A stretch of 51,485 nucleotides of DNA from Parcubacteria group bacterium GW2011_GWC2_42_12 (GCA_000997945.1 LCCP01000007.1:1-51485); one strand, 5' to 3'; counted from the first letter of the stretch, positions 35,789 through 46,232 are shown. The notes: generated from the letters alone by a model not told the origin. Made by a program: numbers and translations.

Positions 35789-36765
<977 letters not shown>

Positions 36766-36816: not shown

Positions 36817-37890
36817 ATGAAAAATCCAGGAAATTTCCCAAAAAAAATTAAAATTGGCAACAGACTGGTAGGGGAGAATCAGCCGGTTTTAATTATCGCT
36901 GATATCGGGGCTAATTTTGACGGTAATTTGGAAAAAGCCAAAAAACTCGCTTTAGCGGTTAAAGAGGCTGGCGGCGATGTAGTAAAGATACAAAGTTTTT
37001 TGGCGCCTAAGATTGTTTCTGGTTCTGGTTTCGCCTCGATGAAACTTAAAGGCGTTCACGGCAGTTGGGGTAGGCCAGTTGATGAAATATTTAAAGAAGC
37101 GGAATTTAAAAGAGAGTGGCATAAGGAATTTTTTGAGCATTGTCGAGCCATCGGCATCGCCGTTTCATCTTCTCCCTATGATTTTGAAGCCGTTGATTTG
37201 ATGAAAGAACTTGGAGTTGATTTCTATAAAATCGGTTCTGGCGACATAACTTGGCATGAAATGTTGGAGTATATCGCCAAAAAGAATAAACCAATGATTT
37301 TAGCCACTGGCGCCAGCACTTTGGCTGAAGTTGACGAGGCCGTTAAAATTATCGAAGCAACCGGTAATCGCGATTTAATTTTATTGCAATGTATTACTAA
37401 CTATCCATCAAAAATTGCTAGCGCCAATTTAAATGTTTTAAAAACATATCAAAAAAGATTTGATATAATTACCGGTTATTCCGATCATGCTCCGACCGAT
37501 ATTGTGCCTCTGGGGGCGGTTGCTCTGGGCGCCAAGGTAATTGAAAAACATTTTACTTTAAACAAAAAAGATAAGGGGCCGGATCATCCGCATTCTATGG
37601 AGCCGGCTGAATTTGCCAGCATGGTAAAAAGAATTAGACAGCTTGAGGCGGCGGCGGGATCGGAAGATAAACAGGTGGTTGAAGAAGAATCCGAAACCGT
37701 TATTGTTCAGCGCCGGGGATTATATGCTAAGCGCGTGATTAAAGCGGGAGAACCGTTAACAGCCGGAGATATTGATGTCTTGCGCCCGGCTTTAGGAATT
37801 TTACCGAAATTTAAATCTTCCATCACGGGCAAAAAAGCCAAACGGACGATCGGGGCTGGTGAGCCGATCAGATGGGAAGATTTGGCTTAA
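36817..37890 (+). CDS. neuB: NeuB/PseI-family nonulosonic acid synthase
   Basis: 357 residues. An N-terminal TIM barrel shows IIADIGANFDGNLEKAKKLALAVKEAGGDVVKIQSF, VSSSPYDFEAVDLM, FYKIGSGDITWHEML, PMILATGAS, LLQCITNYPS and VIEKHFTLNK, conserved in sialic, legionaminic and pseudaminic acid synthases. The last 60 residues (RRGLYAKRVIKAGEPLTAGDIDVLRP) are the SAF/antifreeze-like domain. It condenses phosphoenolpyruvate with an N-acyl hexosamine to give a nine-carbon keto acid. Follows the pseB pseudogene by 51 bp. The ADIGANFDG motif deviates from the more usual AEIGxNHNG seen in the copy at 44708, suggesting a different substrate. Confidence 0.9.
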   Translation: MKNPGNFPKKIKIGNRLVGENQPVLIIADIGANFDGNLEKAKKLALAVKEAGGDVVKIQSFLAPKIVSGSGFASMKLKGVHGSWGRPVDEIFKEAEFKREWHKEFFEHCRAIGIAVSSSPYDFEAVDLMKELGVDFYKIGSGDITWHEMLEYIAKKNKPMILATGASTLAEVDEAVKIIEATGNRDLILLQCITNYPSKIASANLNVLKTYQKRFDIITGYSDHAPTDIVPLGAVALGAKVIEKHFTLNKKDKGPDHPHSMEPAEFASMVKRIRQLEAAAGSEDKQVVEEESETVIVQRRGLYAKRVIKAGEPLTAGDIDVLRPALGILPKFKSSITGKKAKRTIGAGEPIRWEDLA

Positions 37891-37902
37891 ATTAATAATT
37901 AT

Positions 37903-38499
37903 ATGACGGAAAAAGAATTAAATAGAATTAGATTAGTAGCCATAGTTAGCAATGATCGGATTAAAAAATCTGATGCTGTAGTTTGTTTAGAGGGCGATCA
38001 CTATGTTCGATTGGAGCGAGCTCTGGAAATTTTTCAGCAAGGTTGGGCTAAAAAGATACTGGTTTCAGGCGGGTTTGAAGCGCCGCCCTTTTCCGTCCCG
38101 GCCGGGATTCTAGCCAAAGAGTTATATAAAAACGGTGTGCCGAAAAATAAGGTAATTCTGGAAGAAAAATCATTGAATTCTTATGAGCAGGGAGTGGAAG
38201 TCATGAAAATTATTAAAGAGAAAAAATGGCAGAAGATAATTTTAGTCGCTTCTCATTTTCATCAGATCAGGGCCTACCTTACTTTTCTAAAGACCATGAA
38301 GAAGGCCGGCCTTAAAGTTCAAATTTTTAACGCGCCAGCCAGAGAGATTTCGTGGTTTGATGTTATTTCCTTAGGTAAGAGTCGGTTAGAACTCTTAAAA
38401 GATGAGTTTGATAAAATAGAAGACTATTCGAGAAAAGGCGATGTAGTTTCAATCAAAGAGAGCATTGAATATCAAAAGTGGAAAGAGCAACAAAAATAA
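37903..38499 (+). CDS. YdcF-like (DUF218) protein
   Basis: 198 residues. SDAVVCLEGDHYVRLERALEIFQQGWAKKILVSGG, AGILAKELYKNGVPKNKVILEEKSLNSYEQGVEVMKII and KIILVASHFHQIRAYLTFL follow the YdcF/SanA (DUF218) pattern, a Rossmann-like fold whose enzymatic role is not established. It lacks the N-terminal membrane helices of ElyC. Both NeuB genes in this window have a YdcF-like gene beside them (here and at 44077), which suggests a role in nonulosonate formation, for instance at a dephosphorylation or hydrolysis step. That is inference. Confidence 0.78.
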   Translation: MTEKELNRIRLVAIVSNDRIKKSDAVVCLEGDHYVRLERALEIFQQGWAKKILVSGGFEAPPFSVPAGILAKELYKNGVPKNKVILEEKSLNSYEQGVEVMKIIKEKKWQKIILVASHFHQIRAYLTFLKTMKKAGLKVQIFNAPAREISWFDVISLGKSRLELLKDEFDKIEDYSRKGDVVSIKESIEYQKWKEQQK

Positions 38500-38520
38500 A
38501 ATTAGATTATTTAAGATTTT

Positions 38521-39171
38521 ATGGATATAGAACAAGCCAGGAAAACAATGAAGCATAATTTTATCGGACCGGACGAACTAAAGAAAATAGCCGGCCGGAT
38601 GAATTTACCTGATTTTCACTCCGGTAAAGTAAAAATTCCCGCGATACAGTTTAAAGTTGATTTATTAAAAAAAGTTTCTGAAGATTATATCTTAATTTTG
38701 GGTCTGCCTCGCGCTAAGGATGGAACTAAATTGACCATAAATAATTTACGTTTATTCTTCGGTTTTGATCCGGCGGCAAAAGAACCCTGTTTCTATAATC
38801 AAGATTGGTATCTAAAAGAAAAATTCGCCAATGATGTTTCTTTAAAGTTTAAATGGTATCTCATAAAAAAAACTGTTGCTAAGAATAGCCGGGGGAGAAG
38901 ACCGGAGGATATTGAAAAAAGTCTGCCTTCCGATAGTTCATTTCCTTCAGCGGTTCTGACGGTATTTACTTTTTTTGCCTATTATTTCTTAAGTAGCGGT
39001 CGGATTTTGTGGCAGTATGATTTTATTTGGTGTTCTGACAAAGATAAAAACGGCGATAGAATTTATACCGGGCGCTATTCGGATCCCAAAAAGATTAATA
39101 AGAACGGTTTTAATATTCATCGCTATCTTTCTCTCCGTTCTGGCTACGGTTTAGCGCCGCAAATTATATGA
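38521..39171 (+). CDS. Uncharacterised protein in the nonulosonate block
   Basis: 216 residues; no family was recognised. No signal peptide or continuous membrane segment except a hydrophobic stretch VLTVFTFFAYYFLSSGRIL (near 145-163). Aromatic-rich motifs occur in the C-terminal third, WQYDFIWCSDKDKNGDRIYTG and INKNGFNIHRYLSL, which look like a structured binding site. It is 21 bp after a YdcF-like gene and shares an ATGA overlap with the SpsF-type cytidylyltransferase gene, so coupled translation points to the same pathway. Whether it is an enzyme, an accessory protein or a transferase cannot be decided. Confidence 0.6.
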   Translation: MDIEQARKTMKHNFIGPDELKKIAGRMNLPDFHSGKVKIPAIQFKVDLLKKVSEDYILILGLPRAKDGTKLTINNLRLFFGFDPAAKEPCFYNQDWYLKEKFANDVSLKFKWYLIKKTVAKNSRGRRPEDIEKSLPSDSSFPSAVLTVFTFFAYYFLSSGRILWQYDFIWCSDKDKNGDRIYTGRYSDPKKINKNGFNIHRYLSLRSGYGLAPQII

Positions 39172-39923
39172 TCACGACAATTATTCAAGCCAGAATCAGT
39201 TCAACTAGATTACCCGAGAAGATGTTACTGCTATTAGGCCGTAGGACTATATTGGAAAATGTCGTGGCACGGGTCCAGAAAGCTAAACTGGTAGGTGAAA
39301 TAATCGTGGCGACCTCGGACAGCGAAGCTGATGATAGAATTGCTCAACTTTGTGAAGAAAGAGGTATAAGATATTTTCGAGGCAGTTTGGATGATGTTTT
39401 AGACAGGTATTATCAAGCGGCGAAACATTTTCAGGCGGAAAATGTTTGCCGAGTTACCGCCGATTGTCCGTTGATTGATCCGGAAGTTATTGATCTGGTA
39501 GCTAAGAAATATTTAGCGGGCGGCTACGATTATGTTTCCAATAATCATCCGGTGGCCACTTACCCCGATGGACTGGATGTTGAAATTTTTTCTTTCCGGG
39601 CTTTGGAAAAAACTTGGCGAGAAGCGGTTTTACCGTCCGAGAGAGAGCATATTACCGCCCATATCTGGAATCATCCGGATAAATTTAAAATTTACAATGT
39701 GAAAAATGACATTGATCTGTCGGATTATCGGCTGACTATTGACAAGACGGCCGATTATGAATTGTTAAAAGTAATTTTTAAGGAAGTTTCCGATCGGACA
39801 ACGCCAAATATTTTAAAATTTTTAAATGAACACCAGAATATAAAAAATATTAATGCTAAAATTACCAGAGATGAAGGCTACTATAAATCTTTAGAATATG
39901 ACAAAATCAATTTCCATAAATAG
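39168..39923 (+). CDS. spsF: SpsF-family cytidylyltransferase
   Basis: 251 residues. IIQARISSTRLPEKMLLLL is the nucleotide-binding start of SpsF/NeuA-like enzymes. DDRIAQLCEERGIRYFRGSLDDVLDRYYQAA, RVTADCPLIDPEVIDLV, YVSNNHPVATYPDGLDVEIFS and SEREHITAHIW match SpsF throughout. These enzymes are expected to activate nonulosonic or related sugars with CTP. It lies downstream of neuB, YdcF and the uncharacterised 216-residue gene, with an ATGA overlap to the last. A paralogue is at 43320. Confidence 0.88.
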   Translation: MITTIIQARISSTRLPEKMLLLLGRRTILENVVARVQKAKLVGEIIVATSDSEADDRIAQLCEERGIRYFRGSLDDVLDRYYQAAKHFQAENVCRVTADCPLIDPEVIDLVAKKYLAGGYDYVSNNHPVATYPDGLDVEIFSFRALEKTWREAVLPSEREHITAHIWNHPDKFKIYNVKNDIDLSDYRLTIDKTADYELLKVIFKEVSDRTTPNILKFLNEHQNIKNINAKITRDEGYYKSLEYDKINFHK

Positions 39924-39936
39924 ACAGAGTAGGAAA

Positions 39937-40899
39937 ATGTCTAAGGTTGATAAAAATCATCCCCTAGAAGTTAAAATTCCCAACAATATAATGATTGAGG
40001 TGACAAATCTTTGTAACCTCAAATGTCAAATGTGTTATAACCAGCGCATGAAAAGAAAAAAGGGCTTCATGCCTTTTAGTTTATTTAAAAAAATTGTGGA
40101 TCAGGCGGTTGATTTGAGTATTGAGAATATGGGGCTATATACCACCGGCGAGAGCTTTCTTCATCCCGAGATTTTTAAATTTATAAAATACGCGAAACAG
40201 ACAGGCATAAAATATGTCTATATTACTACTAATGGTCAAGCGCTGGATGACGAAAAAATAAAAAAAATATTTGCTTCCGGCCTGGATTCGATTAAATTTT
40301 CCATTGATGCCGGGAATAAAAAACAATATGAATCTTTAAAAATTGGCGCGAGCTGGGATAAATTAGTTATCACCGTTAAAAGTCTTAGAAAGATGAGAGA
40401 TGAAATGAATTCTCCTCTGCGGATTTTCGCTTCTTTTATTATCATGGCAGATAACTTTAAGGATTTGCTTAAGTATAAAAATACCTTTGGCAATTTCATA
40501 GATGAAACCGATTTTATTTTGGTAAAAAATCAAGGATCTCAAGTTAAAGTCGAGGGGCTTTATCCTAAAGAAATTATTTCTCAGATTAAGAATTTAACTT
40601 TGCCGAAAGAGAAATGGCAGCCCTGTCATATGCTGTGGAATAGATTTATCATCACCTCTGAAGGCTACCTGACGATTTGCTGCATAGATTTCGAAAATAA
40701 ATTGATTTACGGAGATGTTAATAAAGAATCTCTTGGGGCGAGCTGGAACAACAAAAAAATGAAGAGATTTAGAGAAATACACACACGCGGACAATTTGCC
40801 AAACTCCCATTGTGTTTTAACTGTGATGTAATTAAGAGAAATAATGAGATAGATATTAATAAAATTTTACAAAATTATGAGTATAAAAAAAGGTTTTAA
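39937..40899 (+). CDS. Radical SAM/SPASM-type protein
   Basis: About 320 residues from the ATG at 39937; an earlier in-frame ATG at 39898 overlaps the spsF gene by 26 nt and adds residues without conservation. The cluster-binding cysteines are in LCNLKCQMC (C26, C30, C33), followed by LYTTGESFLHPEIFKFI and IKFSIDAGNKKQYESLKIG. The C-terminal CHMLWNRFIITSEGYLTICCIDFENKLIYGDV ... LCFNCD is a SPASM region for an auxiliary Fe-S cluster. It resembles the proteins at 18095 and 19039 and overlaps the next aminotransferase gene by 23 nt. Substrate unknown; a sugar dehydrogenase or epimerase role is possible. Confidence 0.86.
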   Translation: MSKVDKNHPLEVKIPNNIMIEVTNLCNLKCQMCYNQRMKRKKGFMPFSLFKKIVDQAVDLSIENMGLYTTGESFLHPEIFKFIKYAKQTGIKYVYITTNGQALDDEKIKKIFASGLDSIKFSIDAGNKKQYESLKIGASWDKLVITVKSLRKMRDEMNSPLRIFASFIIMADNFKDLLKYKNTFGNFIDETDFILVKNQGSQVKVEGLYPKEIISQIKNLTLPKEKWQPCHMLWNRFIITSEGYLTICCIDFENKLIYGDVNKESLGASWNNKKMKRFREIHTRGQFAKLPLCFNCDVIKRNNEIDINKILQNYEYKKRF

Positions 40900-42190
40900 A
40901 CTATGGCGGCAGGCAAAAAAAATAATTCCCGGCGGTTCGCAATTGTTGTCTAAACGAGTCGAGATGTTTTTGCCCGAACAATGGCCCGCCTTTTTTAAAA
41001 AAGCCAAGGGCGTGGAGGTTTGGGATTTAGATGGCAATAAATATCTTGATGTTAATGCCAGCATTGGGGCCTGTATTTTGGGTTATGCCGACCCGGAAGT
41101 TAACCGGGCCGTAAAAAAGGCCATAGACGATGGTTCAAATTCTACGCTTAATTGTCCGGAAGAAGTGAAATTAGCGGAGTTGTTATGCAAATTGCATCCT
41201 TGGGCCAAGATGGTGAGATATGCCCGAGGCGGCGGGGAAGCCATGGCCGTAGCCGTTAGAATTGCTCGAGCGTATTCCGGGAAGAGCCAGGTAGCTTTTT
41301 GCGGTTATCATGGTTGGTCAGATTGGTATTTAGCGGCCAACATAGTCAATGATAAAAGTTTGGATGGACACTTGCTCTCGGGATTAGAACCGAGGGGCGT
41401 ACCCAGAGAATTAAAAGGCACGGCGATTCCTTTTCGCTATAATAAAATTGCCGAACTAAAAAAAATAGTTTCTAAGAATAAGAATATTGGCGTGATTGTG
41501 ATGGAGCCATTAAGACATGAGGAGCCGAAGGATAATTTTTTAAAGCAAGTAAGAAAGATTGCCGATAAAATTGGCGCTGTCTTGGTATTTGACGAAGTAA
41601 CCATCGGCTGGCGGCTTAATGTCGGTGGAGCGCACCTTAAATACGGCGTTAATCCGGACATCGCCGTTTTTGCCAAAGGCCTAAGCAATGGTTTTCCTAT
41701 GGCCGCGATCATCGGCAAAAAGGAAATTATGCAAGCCGCTCAAACTACTTTTATCAGCAGTTCTTCTTGGACCGAAAGGATCGGCCCGACGGCCGCCTTA
41801 GCGACAATTAATAAAATGATTGATAAGAAGGTTCCAGAGCATCTAAATAGAATCGGCCGGTTGGTGGTTAAGGGCTTAAAGCAGGCGGCAAAAAATAATC
41901 AGCTGAAGGTTACGGTAGCTGGGCCGCCGCCCTTAATTCATTTTTCTTTTGACTATGGCGCGGATAGTCAGGCCATACGCACTTTATTTACTCAAGAGAT
42001 GTTAAAGAAAAAGATTTTGGCTTCGGGCGGTGTTTATGTTACTTATAGTCTTAAAAAAAAGCAGGCCAAAAGATATTTGCGGGCAGTCGAAGAAACATTT
42101 AGATTATTAAGGAAGGCGATTGATAATAATCAAGTCCATAGTTTATTAAATGGCCCAATCGCTCATTCCGGATTTAAAAGATTAGTCTAA
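40877..42190 (+). CDS. Class III aminotransferase (glutamate-1-semialdehyde aminomutase-like)
   Basis: 437 residues. KKIIPGGSQLLSKR and GVEVWDLDGNKYLDVNASIGACILGY are the HemL-like start, VRYARGGGEAMAVAVRIARAYSG and AFCGYHGWSDWYLAA bind PLP, LVFDEVTIGWRL carries the cofactor Asp and FAKGLSNGFP the Schiff-base lysine K267. HemL itself serves tetrapyrrole synthesis, but no other heme gene is present and class III paralogues occur in nonulosonate and other sugar clusters. It probably aminates or isomerises a sugar intermediate. Starts within the end of the previous gene (23-nt overlap). Confidence 0.85.
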   Translation: MSIKKGFKLWRQAKKIIPGGSQLLSKRVEMFLPEQWPAFFKKAKGVEVWDLDGNKYLDVNASIGACILGYADPEVNRAVKKAIDDGSNSTLNCPEEVKLAELLCKLHPWAKMVRYARGGGEAMAVAVRIARAYSGKSQVAFCGYHGWSDWYLAANIVNDKSLDGHLLSGLEPRGVPRELKGTAIPFRYNKIAELKKIVSKNKNIGVIVMEPLRHEEPKDNFLKQVRKIADKIGAVLVFDEVTIGWRLNVGGAHLKYGVNPDIAVFAKGLSNGFPMAAIIGKKEIMQAAQTTFISSSSWTERIGPTAALATINKMIDKKVPEHLNRIGRLVVKGLKQAAKNNQLKVTVAGPPPLIHFSFDYGADSQAIRTLFTQEMLKKKILASGGVYVTYSLKKKQAKRYLRAVEETFRLLRKAIDNNQVHSLLNGPIAHSGFKRLV

Positions 42191-42201
42191 TTTATAATCA
42201 T

Positions 42202-43305
42202 ATGATTCCTTACGGGCATCAAAATATTGACCAAGAGGACATTAGAGAAGTGATAACAGCTTTGAAATCAGACTGGCTGACGCAAGGGCCGAGAGTTTTG
42301 CAATTTGAAAAAGCGCTGGCTAAATATTGTGGCGCTAAATACGCGGTAGCGGTATCGAGCGGCACTGCCGCCTTGCATCTGGCTTATTTAGCGGCCGGGC
42401 TGAAAGAAGGCGATGAAGTGATAACCACACCTAATACTTTCGTGGCCACAACTAATATGTTGCTCGCGGTTGGCGCTAAACCCGTTTTCTGTGACATAAG
42501 GTTAGATACATATAATTTTGATGAAACCAAGATAGAAAAATTGATCACTAAGAGGACTAAGGCCATCGCGCCGGTTCATTTTGGCGGCCAGCCGTGCGCT
42601 CTGGCTGAAATTCAGAGAATAGCCAAAAAACATAAATTGTTGGTGATTGAGGACGCTTGCCACGCTTTGGGCGCGAGCTACAAAAATAAAAAAATTGGCG
42701 GATTATCCGATATGAGCGTTTTTAGTTTTCATCCGGTAAAATCAATTACTACTGGTGAAGGCGGCGCGGTTTTAACTAATAATAAAAAGTTTTATGATCA
42801 ATTAATTTTATTGCGCAGCCACGGGATTCATAAAGACGAGAATGGTGCCAATGTCATGACCGGCTTGGGGTATAATTATAGAATAACCGATTTTCAGGCC
42901 GCGCTGGGCTTAAGCCAACTAAAGAAATTAGATAAATTTATGAAGCAGCGGCGGCAGATTGTGCGATGGTATCGACGATACTTACGGGACGAGAAGAGTA
43001 TTATCCTGCCGCTTGAATTGGCCGATTGTCTGAGTAGCTGGCATTTATATGTAATTAGGACAAAAAATAAAGCTGATCGGCCATTATTGCGTCAATATTT
43101 ATTAAAACATGGCGTTGGCGTAAATTTTCATTATCCAGCGGTCTATTCCCAGCCCTACTATCAAAATCATGGTTATCGCGGATTAAAATTGCCGGCCGAA
43201 GAAGTTTACCATAGTTCTTGCATTACTTTACCCTGTTTTCCCAGACTTAAAGAACCAGAAATAAAGTTTATTTGTAAAAATATTAAAGAATATTTTAGTA
43301 AATAA
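42202..43305 (+). CDS. pseC: PseC-like UDP-4-keto-sugar aminotransferase
   Basis: 367 residues of the DegT/DnrJ/EryC1 family. MIPYGHQNIDQEDIREVI ... SDWLTQGPRVLQFEKAL is the characteristic beginning of PseC. YAVAVSSGTAALHLAYLAAGL, DEVITTPNTFVATTN, VIEDACHALGASYKNKKIGG and FSFHPVKSITTGEGG (PLP lysine K180) complete the signature. PseC aminates the 4-keto sugar made by PseB; here pseB (35792) is frameshifted, so either it is not the partner or the pathway is affected. It lies between the class III aminotransferase and the second spsF. Confidence 0.85.
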   Translation: MIPYGHQNIDQEDIREVITALKSDWLTQGPRVLQFEKALAKYCGAKYAVAVSSGTAALHLAYLAAGLKEGDEVITTPNTFVATTNMLLAVGAKPVFCDIRLDTYNFDETKIEKLITKRTKAIAPVHFGGQPCALAEIQRIAKKHKLLVIEDACHALGASYKNKKIGGLSDMSVFSFHPVKSITTGEGGAVLTNNKKFYDQLILLRSHGIHKDENGANVMTGLGYNYRITDFQAALGLSQLKKLDKFMKQRRQIVRWYRRYLRDEKSIILPLELADCLSSWHLYVIRTKNKADRPLLRQYLLKHGVGVNFHYPAVYSQPYYQNHGYRGLKLPAEEVYHSSCITLPCFPRLKEPEIKFICKNIKEYFSK

Positions 43306-43319
43306 AAAATTAAAAAAAT

Positions 43320-44069
43320 ATGAATAAAAATATTTGTATAATTCAGGCGCGAACCGGATCGACTAGACTGCCCAACAAAGTTTTATTAAAAGTAAATGGA
43401 ATTAGCTTATTGGCGTACATGGTGAAAAGATTAAAATTATCGAAAAAAATAAATAAAATTGTTATTGCCACTTCGGTTAACAAAAATGACAAGGAGATTG
43501 AGCAATTATGCGATAAAATCGGCGTTAGCTGCTTTCGCGGTTCCGAAGACGATGTTTTAGATCGCTATTATCAGTGTTCGCTAAGATACAAAGGTTACGA
43601 AAATATTATTAGATTAACTGCGGATTGCCCGCTGATCGATCCTTATGTTGTTGACGATGTTATAACATTTTTTGACAATAATAAAAAATTTGATTTTGTA
43701 AGCAATTTTCTTCCTAAGTCATTTCCTCATGGCCTAGATGTCGAAATATTTAGAAGAAAAGCTCTATTTGAATCAGCGCAAAAAGCGGTATTGCCGGAAG
43801 AAAGAGAACATGTGGATATTTATGTTTTAAATAATCGATGTTTTAAAAAAGGTAACTTGTCCGCCGCTTATAACTTTTCCCAATTTAGGATGACTGTTGA
43901 TTACCCAGTAGATTTCGAGGTTATTAAATTTTTGATTGAAAACAGCAAAATTACCGATAGCTATCTGCATTATGTCTCTTTGCTCAGCGGTAATTTTCAG
44001 ATGATGTTAAAAAATATCAAGCATAATCATGATTTGTTAAAATCTTGGAATTTGTTTAAAAAAAGTTAA
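43320..44069 (+). CDS. spsF: SpsF-family cytidylyltransferase, second copy
   Basis: 249 residues, similar throughout to the copy at 39168: IIQARTGSTRLPNKVLLKV, KEIEQLCDKIGVSCFRGSEDDVLDRYYQCS, RLTADCPLIDPYVVDDV, FVSNFLPKSFPHGLDVEIF and EEREHVDIYVL. The STRLP motif is followed by NK instead of EK, and codon use is more A/T-rich. Two copies with two NeuB proteins suggest two different CMP-activated acids, or one redundant pair. It starts the second module and is followed after 7 bp by a YdcF-like gene. Confidence 0.88.
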   Translation: MNKNICIIQARTGSTRLPNKVLLKVNGISLLAYMVKRLKLSKKINKIVIATSVNKNDKEIEQLCDKIGVSCFRGSEDDVLDRYYQCSLRYKGYENIIRLTADCPLIDPYVVDDVITFFDNNKKFDFVSNFLPKSFPHGLDVEIFRRKALFESAQKAVLPEEREHVDIYVLNNRCFKKGNLSAAYNFSQFRMTVDYPVDFEVIKFLIENSKITDSYLHYVSLLSGNFQMMLKNIKHNHDLLKSWNLFKKS

Positions 44070-44076
44070 CTTAGCT

Positions 44077-44706
44077 ATGAATAAAAGACAAAAAATTTTA
44101 GCTGTTTTTGGAGGAGCTCTGGCGGAAGATAAGCACGGCCACTGGCATACTACATTTTACGAAATTGGAGATAATTTTGGTATTTGCGGCGGCGGGTTAA
44201 GGGTTAAGGCCGCCGGTTATTTATATAAGGATAAACAGTGCCAAGCAGTTATTGCTTCGGGCGGCAAGGGCCAGCTTAAAAAGGTGTTGCCCGGTAAAAT
44301 TACCTTGGCCAGCATAATAAAAGACGAATTAATCAAAGTTGGCATTCCGGCAAAAAATATAATCAAAGAAGAAAGGTCAGGCAATACTTATCAGCAGCTA
44401 AAGGAGTTGCAAAAAATAATAATGGCCAGTAATTTTAAGGATATTATTATAATCTCCAATAGATATCATTTGCCGCGCCTTCGCGCCATGATAAGATACG
44501 CCGGCGATTTGCGGGCGCTTAAGAAAATGTTTGATTTGTCAAGACTTGAAATAAAGTCAGCCGAAGACGTCGTTATAGAATATCAACCAAAAATTTGGAG
44601 CAAGATTATTAATCGAGTTTATAAAAGCAGGGCGATGACGAAAAGAATAAAATTAGAGAATCAAGGAACAGGGCAAATAAAGAGGGGAGTTTATCAATTT
44701 AAATAA
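44077..44706 (+). CDS. YdcF-like (DUF218) protein, second copy
   Basis: 209 residues. ILAVFGGALAEDKHGHW starts the fold, VKAAGYLYKDKQCQAVIASGGKG and IKDELIKVGIPAKNIIKEERSGNTYQQLKELQKI follow, and IIIISNRYHLPRLRAMI ends the DUF218 domain. It resembles the gene at 37903 in order of motifs though sequence identity appears low. It lies between an SpsF and a NeuB gene with 1-7 bp gaps, so it is in a tight operon with them. Function is not established. Confidence 0.75.
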   Translation: MNKRQKILAVFGGALAEDKHGHWHTTFYEIGDNFGICGGGLRVKAAGYLYKDKQCQAVIASGGKGQLKKVLPGKITLASIIKDELIKVGIPAKNIIKEERSGNTYQQLKELQKIIMASNFKDIIIISNRYHLPRLRAMIRYAGDLRALKKMFDLSRLEIKSAEDVVIEYQPKIWSKIINRVYKSRAMTKRIKLENQGTGQIKRGVYQFK

Positions 44707-44707
44707 T

Positions 44708-45769
44708 ATGGAAATTAAAATCGGTCGAAAAAAAATAGGTGAAAATAATTCGGTTTTTATAGTTGCTGAATTAGGTATCAATCATAATGGAAGTGTGGCT
44801 CGAGCCAAAAAAATGATGGTTGCCGCTAAAAAAGCCGGAGTTGACGCCGTTAAGATTCAATCGTTTGTTACTGAAGATTTTGTTGGCGATAAAAGTTTAA
44901 TCTATACCTATAAAAGCCAAGACAAGGAAGTTACAGAATCCCAGTATCTGATGTTTAAGAAGAACGAATTAAATAGAAAAAAACAGAGAGATCTTTTTAC
45001 TTACGCCAAGAAGATTGGTATAATTATTTTTTCCACTCCGCAAGACAATAGTTTTAAAACAGTTGATTATTTGTGCGGTCGAGAAGTAAATATGCCGGCG
45101 ATTAAAGTTCCGTCCGATGATTTGACTAATCTGTCGATGCTCGCTTATGTCGCGCGCAAGCAGAAACCGATAGTTATTTCTACGGGCATGGCTACCCTAA
45201 ATGAAGTAAAAGATGCGGTTAAAACAATAAAAAACCAGGGCAATAATAAAATAATTATTTTAAAATGCACGTCGCTTTATCCGACTCCGCCCAAAGAGGC
45301 AAACCTAGCCCAAATCAAAACTCTGCGAGATATTTTTAAGGGTTGTCTGGTTGGTTTTTCCGATCATACAATAGGATCAACCGCCGCGGTTGCTGCTACT
45401 ATGCTCGGCGCGATCATGATCGAAAAACATTTTACTTTAGATCATAATTTACCTGGTCCGGATCATTGGTTCGCCGCTGATCACGCCGAGTTAACGCAAT
45501 TAGTTAAACAAGTTCGAGAAGCTGAGAAGATGATAGGTAGGCCTGATTTAGTTTTATCTAAGGCCGAAGGTAAGATAAAAGCCATTGCTCGTCGTAGTCT
45601 TGTAGCGGCCAGGCAGATAAAAAGAGGGCAGAGGATAGGTGTTTGCGACCTTGAGTGTAAGCGGCCGGGCACGGGATTACCGCCAAAGTATCTACCAAAA
45701 GTAATTGGCAGAATCGCCCGCCACGATTACCGCCCAGGATATATTTTCACTAATAATGATTTAAAATAA
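44708..45769 (+). CDS. neuB: NeuB-family nonulosonic acid synthase, second copy
   Basis: 353 residues. VAELGINHNGSVARAKKMMVAAKKAGVDAVKIQSF, IIFSTPQDNSFKTVDYL, AIKVPSDDLTNLSML, PIVISTGMATL, LKCTSLYPTPPKEANL, FSDHTIGSTAAVAATMLGAIMIEKHFTLD and GPDHWFAAD give the full sialic-acid-synthase pattern. The C-terminal RRSLVAARQIKRGQRIGVCDLECKRPGTGLPP is the SAF domain. It makes a nine-carbon keto acid from PEP and a hexosamine. The barrel motifs are closer to classical NeuB than those of the copy at 36817. It is followed 1 bp later by an acetyltransferase-like gene. Confidence 0.92.
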   Translation: MEIKIGRKKIGENNSVFIVAELGINHNGSVARAKKMMVAAKKAGVDAVKIQSFVTEDFVGDKSLIYTYKSQDKEVTESQYLMFKKNELNRKKQRDLFTYAKKIGIIIFSTPQDNSFKTVDYLCGREVNMPAIKVPSDDLTNLSMLAYVARKQKPIVISTGMATLNEVKDAVKTIKNQGNNKIIILKCTSLYPTPPKEANLAQIKTLRDIFKGCLVGFSDHTIGSTAAVAATMLGAIMIEKHFTLDHNLPGPDHWFAADHAELTQLVKQVREAEKMIGRPDLVLSKAEGKIKAIARRSLVAARQIKRGQRIGVCDLECKRPGTGLPPKYLPKVIGRIARHDYRPGYIFTNNDLK

Positions 45770-45770
45770 T

Positions 45771-46232
45771 ATGGACAAAAAAATAAATATTTCCGAGTTA
45801 ATCAAAATGCCTGACAATCCGTTTCACCCTTTAGTTTATATCGGTGGCACGCCAAAATTCGGAAAAAATGTTTATATCGGTCTTCTCTCCGAAGTCACTG
45901 CCAAAGGTTCGTCGGTTGAAATCGGTGACGACTGCGATATTGCTTCTTTCGTCAGTATTAATGTGGCCGATTCGCACAATCGGACTATCGGCTTGGCGGA
46001 AGAAATCGAGCGCAAAGAAATAGTTATTGAAAATAATGTTTTTATTGGTTCGCATTGTTTCATCGGCGGCGGTGTAGAGATCGGCCATCACAGCGTCGTG
46101 GCCGCTGGTACGATTATTACTAAGCCATGTAAGATTCCGCCTTATTCGTTGATTGTCGGCAACCCCTTTGTCGTTAAAGCAGGCTGTTATAAAAAAGCCG
46201 CTCAAAAGGCGCGACAAAAATTTTGTAACTAA
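45771..46232 (+). CDS. Hexapeptide-repeat acyltransferase (left-handed beta-helix)
   Basis: 153 residues with regularly spaced hexapeptide repeats: KFGKNVYIGLLSEVTAKG, VEIGDDCDIASFVSI, IVIENNVFIGSHCFIGGGVEIGHHSVVAAGTIITK and IPPYSLIVGNPFVVKAG. This LbH fold forms trimeric O- or N-acetyltransferases; the loop ADSHNRTI probably supplies the catalytic His. In nonulosonate clusters they acetylate amino groups or hydroxyls of the acid. It starts one base after the neuB stop and precedes a B12-type radical SAM gene. Confidence 0.85.
   Translation: MDKKINISELIKMPDNPFHPLVYIGGTPKFGKNVYIGLLSEVTAKGSSVEIGDDCDIASFVSINVADSHNRTIGLAEEIERKEIVIENNVFIGSHCFIGGGVEIGHHSVVAAGTIITKPCKIPPYSLIVGNPFVVKAGCYKKAAQKARQKFCN

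Follow-up and report, generated by a model that had tools for sequence, protein, structure and literature searches.

Two genes for DUF218 (YdcF-like) proteins, DUF218-A and DUF218-B, each lie beside a gene for the nonulosonate synthase NeuB in a 51,485-nucleotide stretch of DNA from Parcubacteria group bacterium GW2011_GWC2_42_12 (LCCP01000007.1:1-51485; the whole of this stretch is called the window below). The analysis of these pairs and of their relatives leads us to propose, with a probability of roughly two in three, that the DUF218 proteins replace PseG (TIGR03590), the hydrolase that acts on the uridine diphosphate (UDP) sugar UDP-2,4-diacetamido-2,4,6-trideoxy-beta-L-altropyranose. We infer that both proteins, as cytosolic and non-orthologous replacements of PseG, would bind the UDP-linked 2,4-diamino-2,4,6-trideoxyhexose that PseB, PseC and an acyltransferase produce and would hydrolyse it at the anomeric carbon, breaking the C-O rather than the P-O bond, with the conserved Thr/Ser and His as putative catalytic residues. 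UDP and the free sugar would be released, and the latter would be condensed with phosphoenolpyruvate by the adjacent NeuB. Hydrolysis at the anomeric carbon is predicted because NeuB requires a free sugar; cleavage at the phosphate would require a second enzyme. Three types of DUF218, A, B and C, are distinguished below, and types B and C make the best case for the replacement of PseG.

The initial annotation of the window had reported that each NeuB gene has a YdcF/DUF218 neighbour, and the pairing is real, with both DUF218 genes at the coordinates given there, by family membership and by spacing: both DUF218 proteins pass the gathering cut-off of PF02698 (27.6 bits), both NeuBs match PF03102 at E ~1e-81, and the gaps are operon-like, with 12 bp from NeuB-A to DUF218-A and 1 bp from DUF218-B to NeuB-B. 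The whole 1.03-Mb assembly, in which the window is contig C7, has exactly two DUF218 and two NeuB genes, each NeuB adjoining one DUF218; by our own estimate, for ~1000 genes, the probability that both pairs are adjacent by chance is of the order of 1e-5. The window carries a long mixed glycan island, and polysaccharide islands mix genes, which could make such pairs meaningless. That explanation is refuted, to the point of being extremely improbable, by the replication of the NeuB-DUF218 linkage in about 20 loci from 19 genomes of two phyla, together with controls in which DUF218 is unlinked: NeuB was found within ~1.5 kb on either side in none of 41 loci with DUF218 of other types, taken from both phyla (L036-L049, L054-L080). 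These controls indicate that linkage to NeuB is a property of particular DUF218 clades.

In operons with type B, to which DUF218-B belongs, the gene is found in the slot of PseG. Locus L205 contains, without gaps, genes for PseB (467.7), PseC (459.5), a PseF-like protein, DUF218, PseI (474.5) and a PseH-like protein, where PseB, PseC and PseI all exceed their equivalog cut-offs and DUF218 is the sole gene without an assigned step. Judged by its gene content, this is the known six-step pseudaminate pathway, with DUF218 standing where PseG is expected. Across the window's class (211 genomes searched), a profile of type B gave nine matches above 170 bits, all of them in NeuB clusters, with NeuB immediately downstream of eight and 2.5 kb away from the ninth; a tenth type-B genome (G337) has NeuB 2.4 kb downstream. 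One might instead regard DUF218 as a tailoring enzyme of the nonulosonate (e.g., for acyl- or methyl-transfer), with UDP being released by a hydrolase that has escaped recognition and whose gene lies elsewhere. Some Pse loci are without every known candidate, so that such a hydrolase may exist, and E. coli YdcF is reported to bind S-adenosylmethionine, as cited in PMC12176290 and PMC3879167. However, the five other steps of L205 are all assigned, leaving hydrolysis alone, and nothing would keep a tailoring gene from occurring with PseG, yet DUF218 and PseG share no locus, which makes this explanation unlikely. As a separate observation, an ATP-grasp and a HAD gene lie between DUF218-B and NeuB in L154:1-4000.

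Type C consists of more distant DUF218 proteins in the Pse clusters of L008, L010 and L149, of which that of L008 passes PF02698 (40.1 bits) and that of L010 is recognised by a local profile only (69 bits). In L149, DUF218-C is fused to a PseH-type GNAT acetyltransferase in a protein of 403 aa, and PseG is fused to the same PseH-type partner in many Bacteroidia loci (e.g., L084). DUF218 and PseG are alike in their place in the operon and in their fusion to PseH, and they are mutually exclusive; they differ in family and in fold. PseG is a GT-B protein, the model of DUF218-A is YdcF-like, and neither the window's DUF218 proteins nor that of L205 matched the TIGR03590 profile. In the type-B loci L202 and L203, from two genomes, DUF218 is joined C-terminally to an SpsF-like synthetase, which, with the direct adjacency to NeuB, could suit a non-catalytic role in which DUF218 accompanies NeuB or SpsF and stabilises a complex or passes on intermediates. 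Such a role would explain neither the absence of PseG nor the fusion to an acetyltransferase, which acts before NeuB. It is also opposed by SanA, the function of which requires Thr125, His149 and Glu182 and is lost on substitution of any of these conserved residues (PMC12176290), and we regard it as improbable.

The distribution of PseG was followed across 61 loci with PseC and NeuB: PseG is present in 34, DUF218 in four, a protein named here GNAT2 in 18 and none of these in five, and any two of these proteins never share a locus. When whole genomes were searched, PseG was found in 0/16 of the other DUF218-type genomes, where only short partial matches to the profile occurred, which look like MurG. 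Bacillus subtilis served as the positive control for the TIGR03590 search, and the PseG profile was made from unfused sequences, as fused PseH domains in the profile give false PseG matches. Comparison with other genomes gives good, though not conclusive, support to the inference of the initial annotation. That annotation had left it undecided whether the YdcF proteins supply a missing hydrolase or phosphatase or carry the intermediate; the PseG slot, the fusions and the absence of PseG favour the hydrolase, and no specific support was obtained for the other two.

GNAT2 is a GNAT-like protein of ~190 aa (PF13420, 'YKCL...PIRxEDxxxIMxWRNxQIDxLRQ...YGGLVHIDW') encoded in L081, L085, L090, L093, L100, L104, L108, L110, L111, L116, L117, L127, L128, L129, L131, L134, L135 and L148. 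Five of these loci encode it in fusion with a PseH-type domain, as is seen for PseG elsewhere, and PseG was not found in the GNAT2 genomes. An unbiased scan of all families of open reading frames (ORFs) ranked GNAT2 first among those avoiding PseG (0/34 versus 18/27), and it may fill or bypass the PseG step, a third way. A family of nicotinamide adenine dinucleotide (NAD)-dependent epimerases was likewise seen only in PseG-less loci (0/34 versus 12/27; L128:11445-14026, L148:13153-14076); in L128 the epimerase carries a fused ATP-grasp domain, and genes for a HAD hydrolase and NeuB come next.

The model of DUF218-A (pLDDT 88.9) has the YdcF fold, matching E. coli YdcF (PDB 3CA8) with a Foldseek E of 6.5e-6 and a VIA Z of 15.8 over 178 aligned residues, at about 14-18% identity. 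This fold has been described as nucleotide-utilising (PMC12176290, PMC3879167). E. coli YdcF, which is also cytosolic, has the conserved Thr/Ser and His in common with the window's proteins, and the alignment shows both residues kept in types A, B and C; it differs in having no assigned reaction and in not being known in a sugar cluster. SanA and ElyC of E. coli have a DUF218 domain in common with these proteins and act on envelope polysaccharide precursors, with SanA depending on its Thr, His and Glu (PMC12176290), but they are membrane-anchored and periplasmic and have no known link to nonulosonates. One could go further and suppose that the DUF218 family as a whole consists of nucleotide-sugar (or sugar-pyrophosphate) hydrolases, with the same chemistry underlying YdcF, SanA and ElyC in E. 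coli, a generalisation that we consider doubtful. The sps pathway of Bacillus subtilis (PMC7439481) is likewise a non-standard nonulosonate cluster with SpsF, differing in that it has a PseG-like protein and not DUF218.

The initial annotation had drawn no distinction between the two YdcF proteins, and this did not survive the phylogenetic analysis. DUF218-A and DUF218-B are 29% identical over 118 residues (NeuB-A and NeuB-B, 36%), and they fall into separate, well-supported clades of a tree built from 70 DUF218 domains; a single origin for both is ruled out. The nonulosonate-linked DUF218 proteins are divided among three clades, A with seven genomes (Bacteroidota included), B with ten genomes of the window's phylum and C with three genomes. 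Unlinked DUF218 proteins stand between these clades, and the starred branches of the tree require at least two changes. Because the three clades are split by unlinked proteins, DUF218 has probably been recruited to nonulosonate clusters more than once.

Type A comes with an additional protein, unkA, a family of ~210 aa without a Pfam model that was seen only beside NeuB-A and DUF218-A. The row NeuB - DUF218 - unkA was found with DUF218-A in three Bacteroidota contigs, two of which have PseB and a CMP (cytidine monophosphate)-sugar synthetase nearby, and type A occurs further in a fourth Bacteroidia genome (G682, L155) and in two genomes of the window's class (L196, L197), the loci of which surfaced by chance in the type-B profile search of the class. 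It adjoins NeuB in 7/7 genomes, the window's included, and no PseG beyond weak partial matches was found in the four type-A genomes searched. Type A was detected in one of 380 sampled genomes of the phylum (the window's own), which rules it out as a common trait of the phylum, and in two of 395 Bacteroidia, a distribution that suggests horizontal transfer; unkA was absent from the phages and viral contigs searched, and DUF218-A from the plasmids searched. The model of unkA (pLDDT 83.5) gave weak C-type-lectin/EgtB-like matches with Z up to 7.9, and its Foldseek search gave no match with E <0.001.

In cassette A the enzyme might be unkA, or unkA and DUF218-A jointly, an explanation for type A alone that is compatible with DUF218 replacing PseG in types B and C. 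The position of unkA directly after DUF218-A in all seven cassettes and its wealth of invariant Asp, Trp, His and Arg would fit it, but types B and C lack unkA in clusters that are equally without PseG, and we hold it to be possible and no better than that.

Several observations weigh against the replacement of PseG by DUF218. For type A, the activity could be shared with or owned by unkA, so that this type could work differently. The Glu of the SanA triad lies in one column of the alignment in types A and C and in another in type B. To our knowledge, an enzymatic activity has been demonstrated for no DUF218 protein. The Fisher test of DUF218 versus PseG gives p 4e-4 overall with the DUF218 loci found later added, from counts in which loci are related by descent, relatedness is uncorrected and the later additions had been selected for carrying DUF218; for the window's phylum alone p is 0.12, a weak exclusion. 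In the stretch read, PseG, DUF218 and GNAT2 are all missing from four of the phylum's 13 PseC loci, and the 18 PseG-less loci with GNAT2 imply that a Pse cluster without PseG need not have DUF218. The substrate of the window's NeuBs is not fixed by their profiles, as both lie below both equivalog cut-offs. With PseB interrupted and both NeuBs below the PseI cut-off, PseC alone exceeds an equivalog cut-off in the window, and pseudaminate is a candidate only for the window's own product.

A further point on that side is a PseG-like gene in the window's own assembly (G000:C38:1484-2302; E 6e-44, 149 bits, just below the cut-off of 153.55). The earlier observation that PseG is missing holds within the window and fails for the assembly as a whole; because of this gene, absence from the organism's own genome is not upheld as first stated, although the contig is an outlier in composition. 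Formally, then, a PseG has turned up elsewhere in the genome, the finding that the initial annotation had named as contrary to its proposal. Contig C38 (7 kb; L006:1-6998) carries the end of a class-III aminotransferase gene, an aldo/keto reductase gene, the PseG-like gene and two ATP-grasp genes. Its tetranucleotide correlation to the genome is 0.43, outside the range of the 41 other pieces (from 0.55 up, median 0.70), and it is therefore probably misbinned.

DUF218/YdcF proteins are widespread, with four in E. coli, and we know of no reaction for the family. Among the papers searched, none connects pseudaminic acid to YdcF or nonulosonic acid to DUF218; in a wider search, the one YdcF/DUF218 paper among the matches listed was that on ElyC, which mentions 'neub' once. 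If DUF218 does replace PseG, the family would gain its first concrete substrate and reaction, and pseudaminate clusters that look incomplete would be explained and could be correctly annotated, both in Bacteroidota genomes and in Patescibacteria-like ones. The step at which nonulosonate synthesis releases UDP would have been reinvented, probably by more than one recruitment of DUF218.

The genes around both pairs are listed in the table.

Table. Nonulosonate genes of the window, with profile matches (scores in bits or E-values) and equivalog cut-offs
Feature	Coordinates	Strand	Evidence
PseB-like 4,6-dehydratase, frame interrupted near 36470	35792..36765	+	two overlapping ORFs match consecutive parts of Polysacc_synt_2; TIGR03589 337.5 (first part)
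NeuB-A, nonulosonate synthase, not assignable to NnaB or PseI	36817..37890	+	PF03102 3e-81; TIGR03569 306.6 (cut-off 399.65); TIGR03586 299.3 (cut-off 340.25)
DUF218-A, YdcF-like, 198 aa, cytosolic-looking; candidate UDP-sugar hydrolase, cassette A	37903..38499	+	PF02698 62.9 bits
unkA, 216 aa, no Pfam family, always after DUF218-A	38521..39171	+	conserved in 7/7 type-A cassettes
SpsF-like CMP-nonulosonate cytidylyltransferase 1	39168..39923	+	PF02348 1e-29
Class-III (GSA-type) pyridoxal phosphate (PLP) aminotransferase	40877..42190	+	PF00202 9e-42
PseC aminotransferase	42202..43305	+	TIGR03588 460.3 (cut-off 423.5, exceeded)
SpsF-like CMP-nonulosonate cytidylyltransferase 2	43320..44069	+	PF02348 5e-27
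DUF218-B, YdcF-like, 209 aa; candidate UDP-sugar hydrolase, cassette B	44077..44706	+	PF02698 61.4 bits
NeuB-B, nonulosonate synthase, not assignable to NnaB or PseI	44708..45769	+	PF03102 2e-81; TIGR03569 343.4 (cut-off 399.65)
Hexapeptide acyltransferase, possible PseH substitute	45771..46232	+	PF14602/PF00132

A radical-SAM gene lies between the first SpsF-like synthetase and the class-III aminotransferase, and the latter is frequent in such clusters, also adjoining DUF218-B in L007, L147, L200, L201 and L204. In the PseB-like gene (window 36420-36540), comparison with homologues indicates that a short stretch is apparently missing near 36470, where the frame changes; the interruption could be a genuine lesion or could stem from a mistake in the assembly. 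In four loci of the phylum (L012, L015, L019, L020), NeuB is ~620-660 aa long, and its C-terminal part resembles, by eye, a TIM barrel of the sugar-phosphate isomerase/AP-endonuclease kind.

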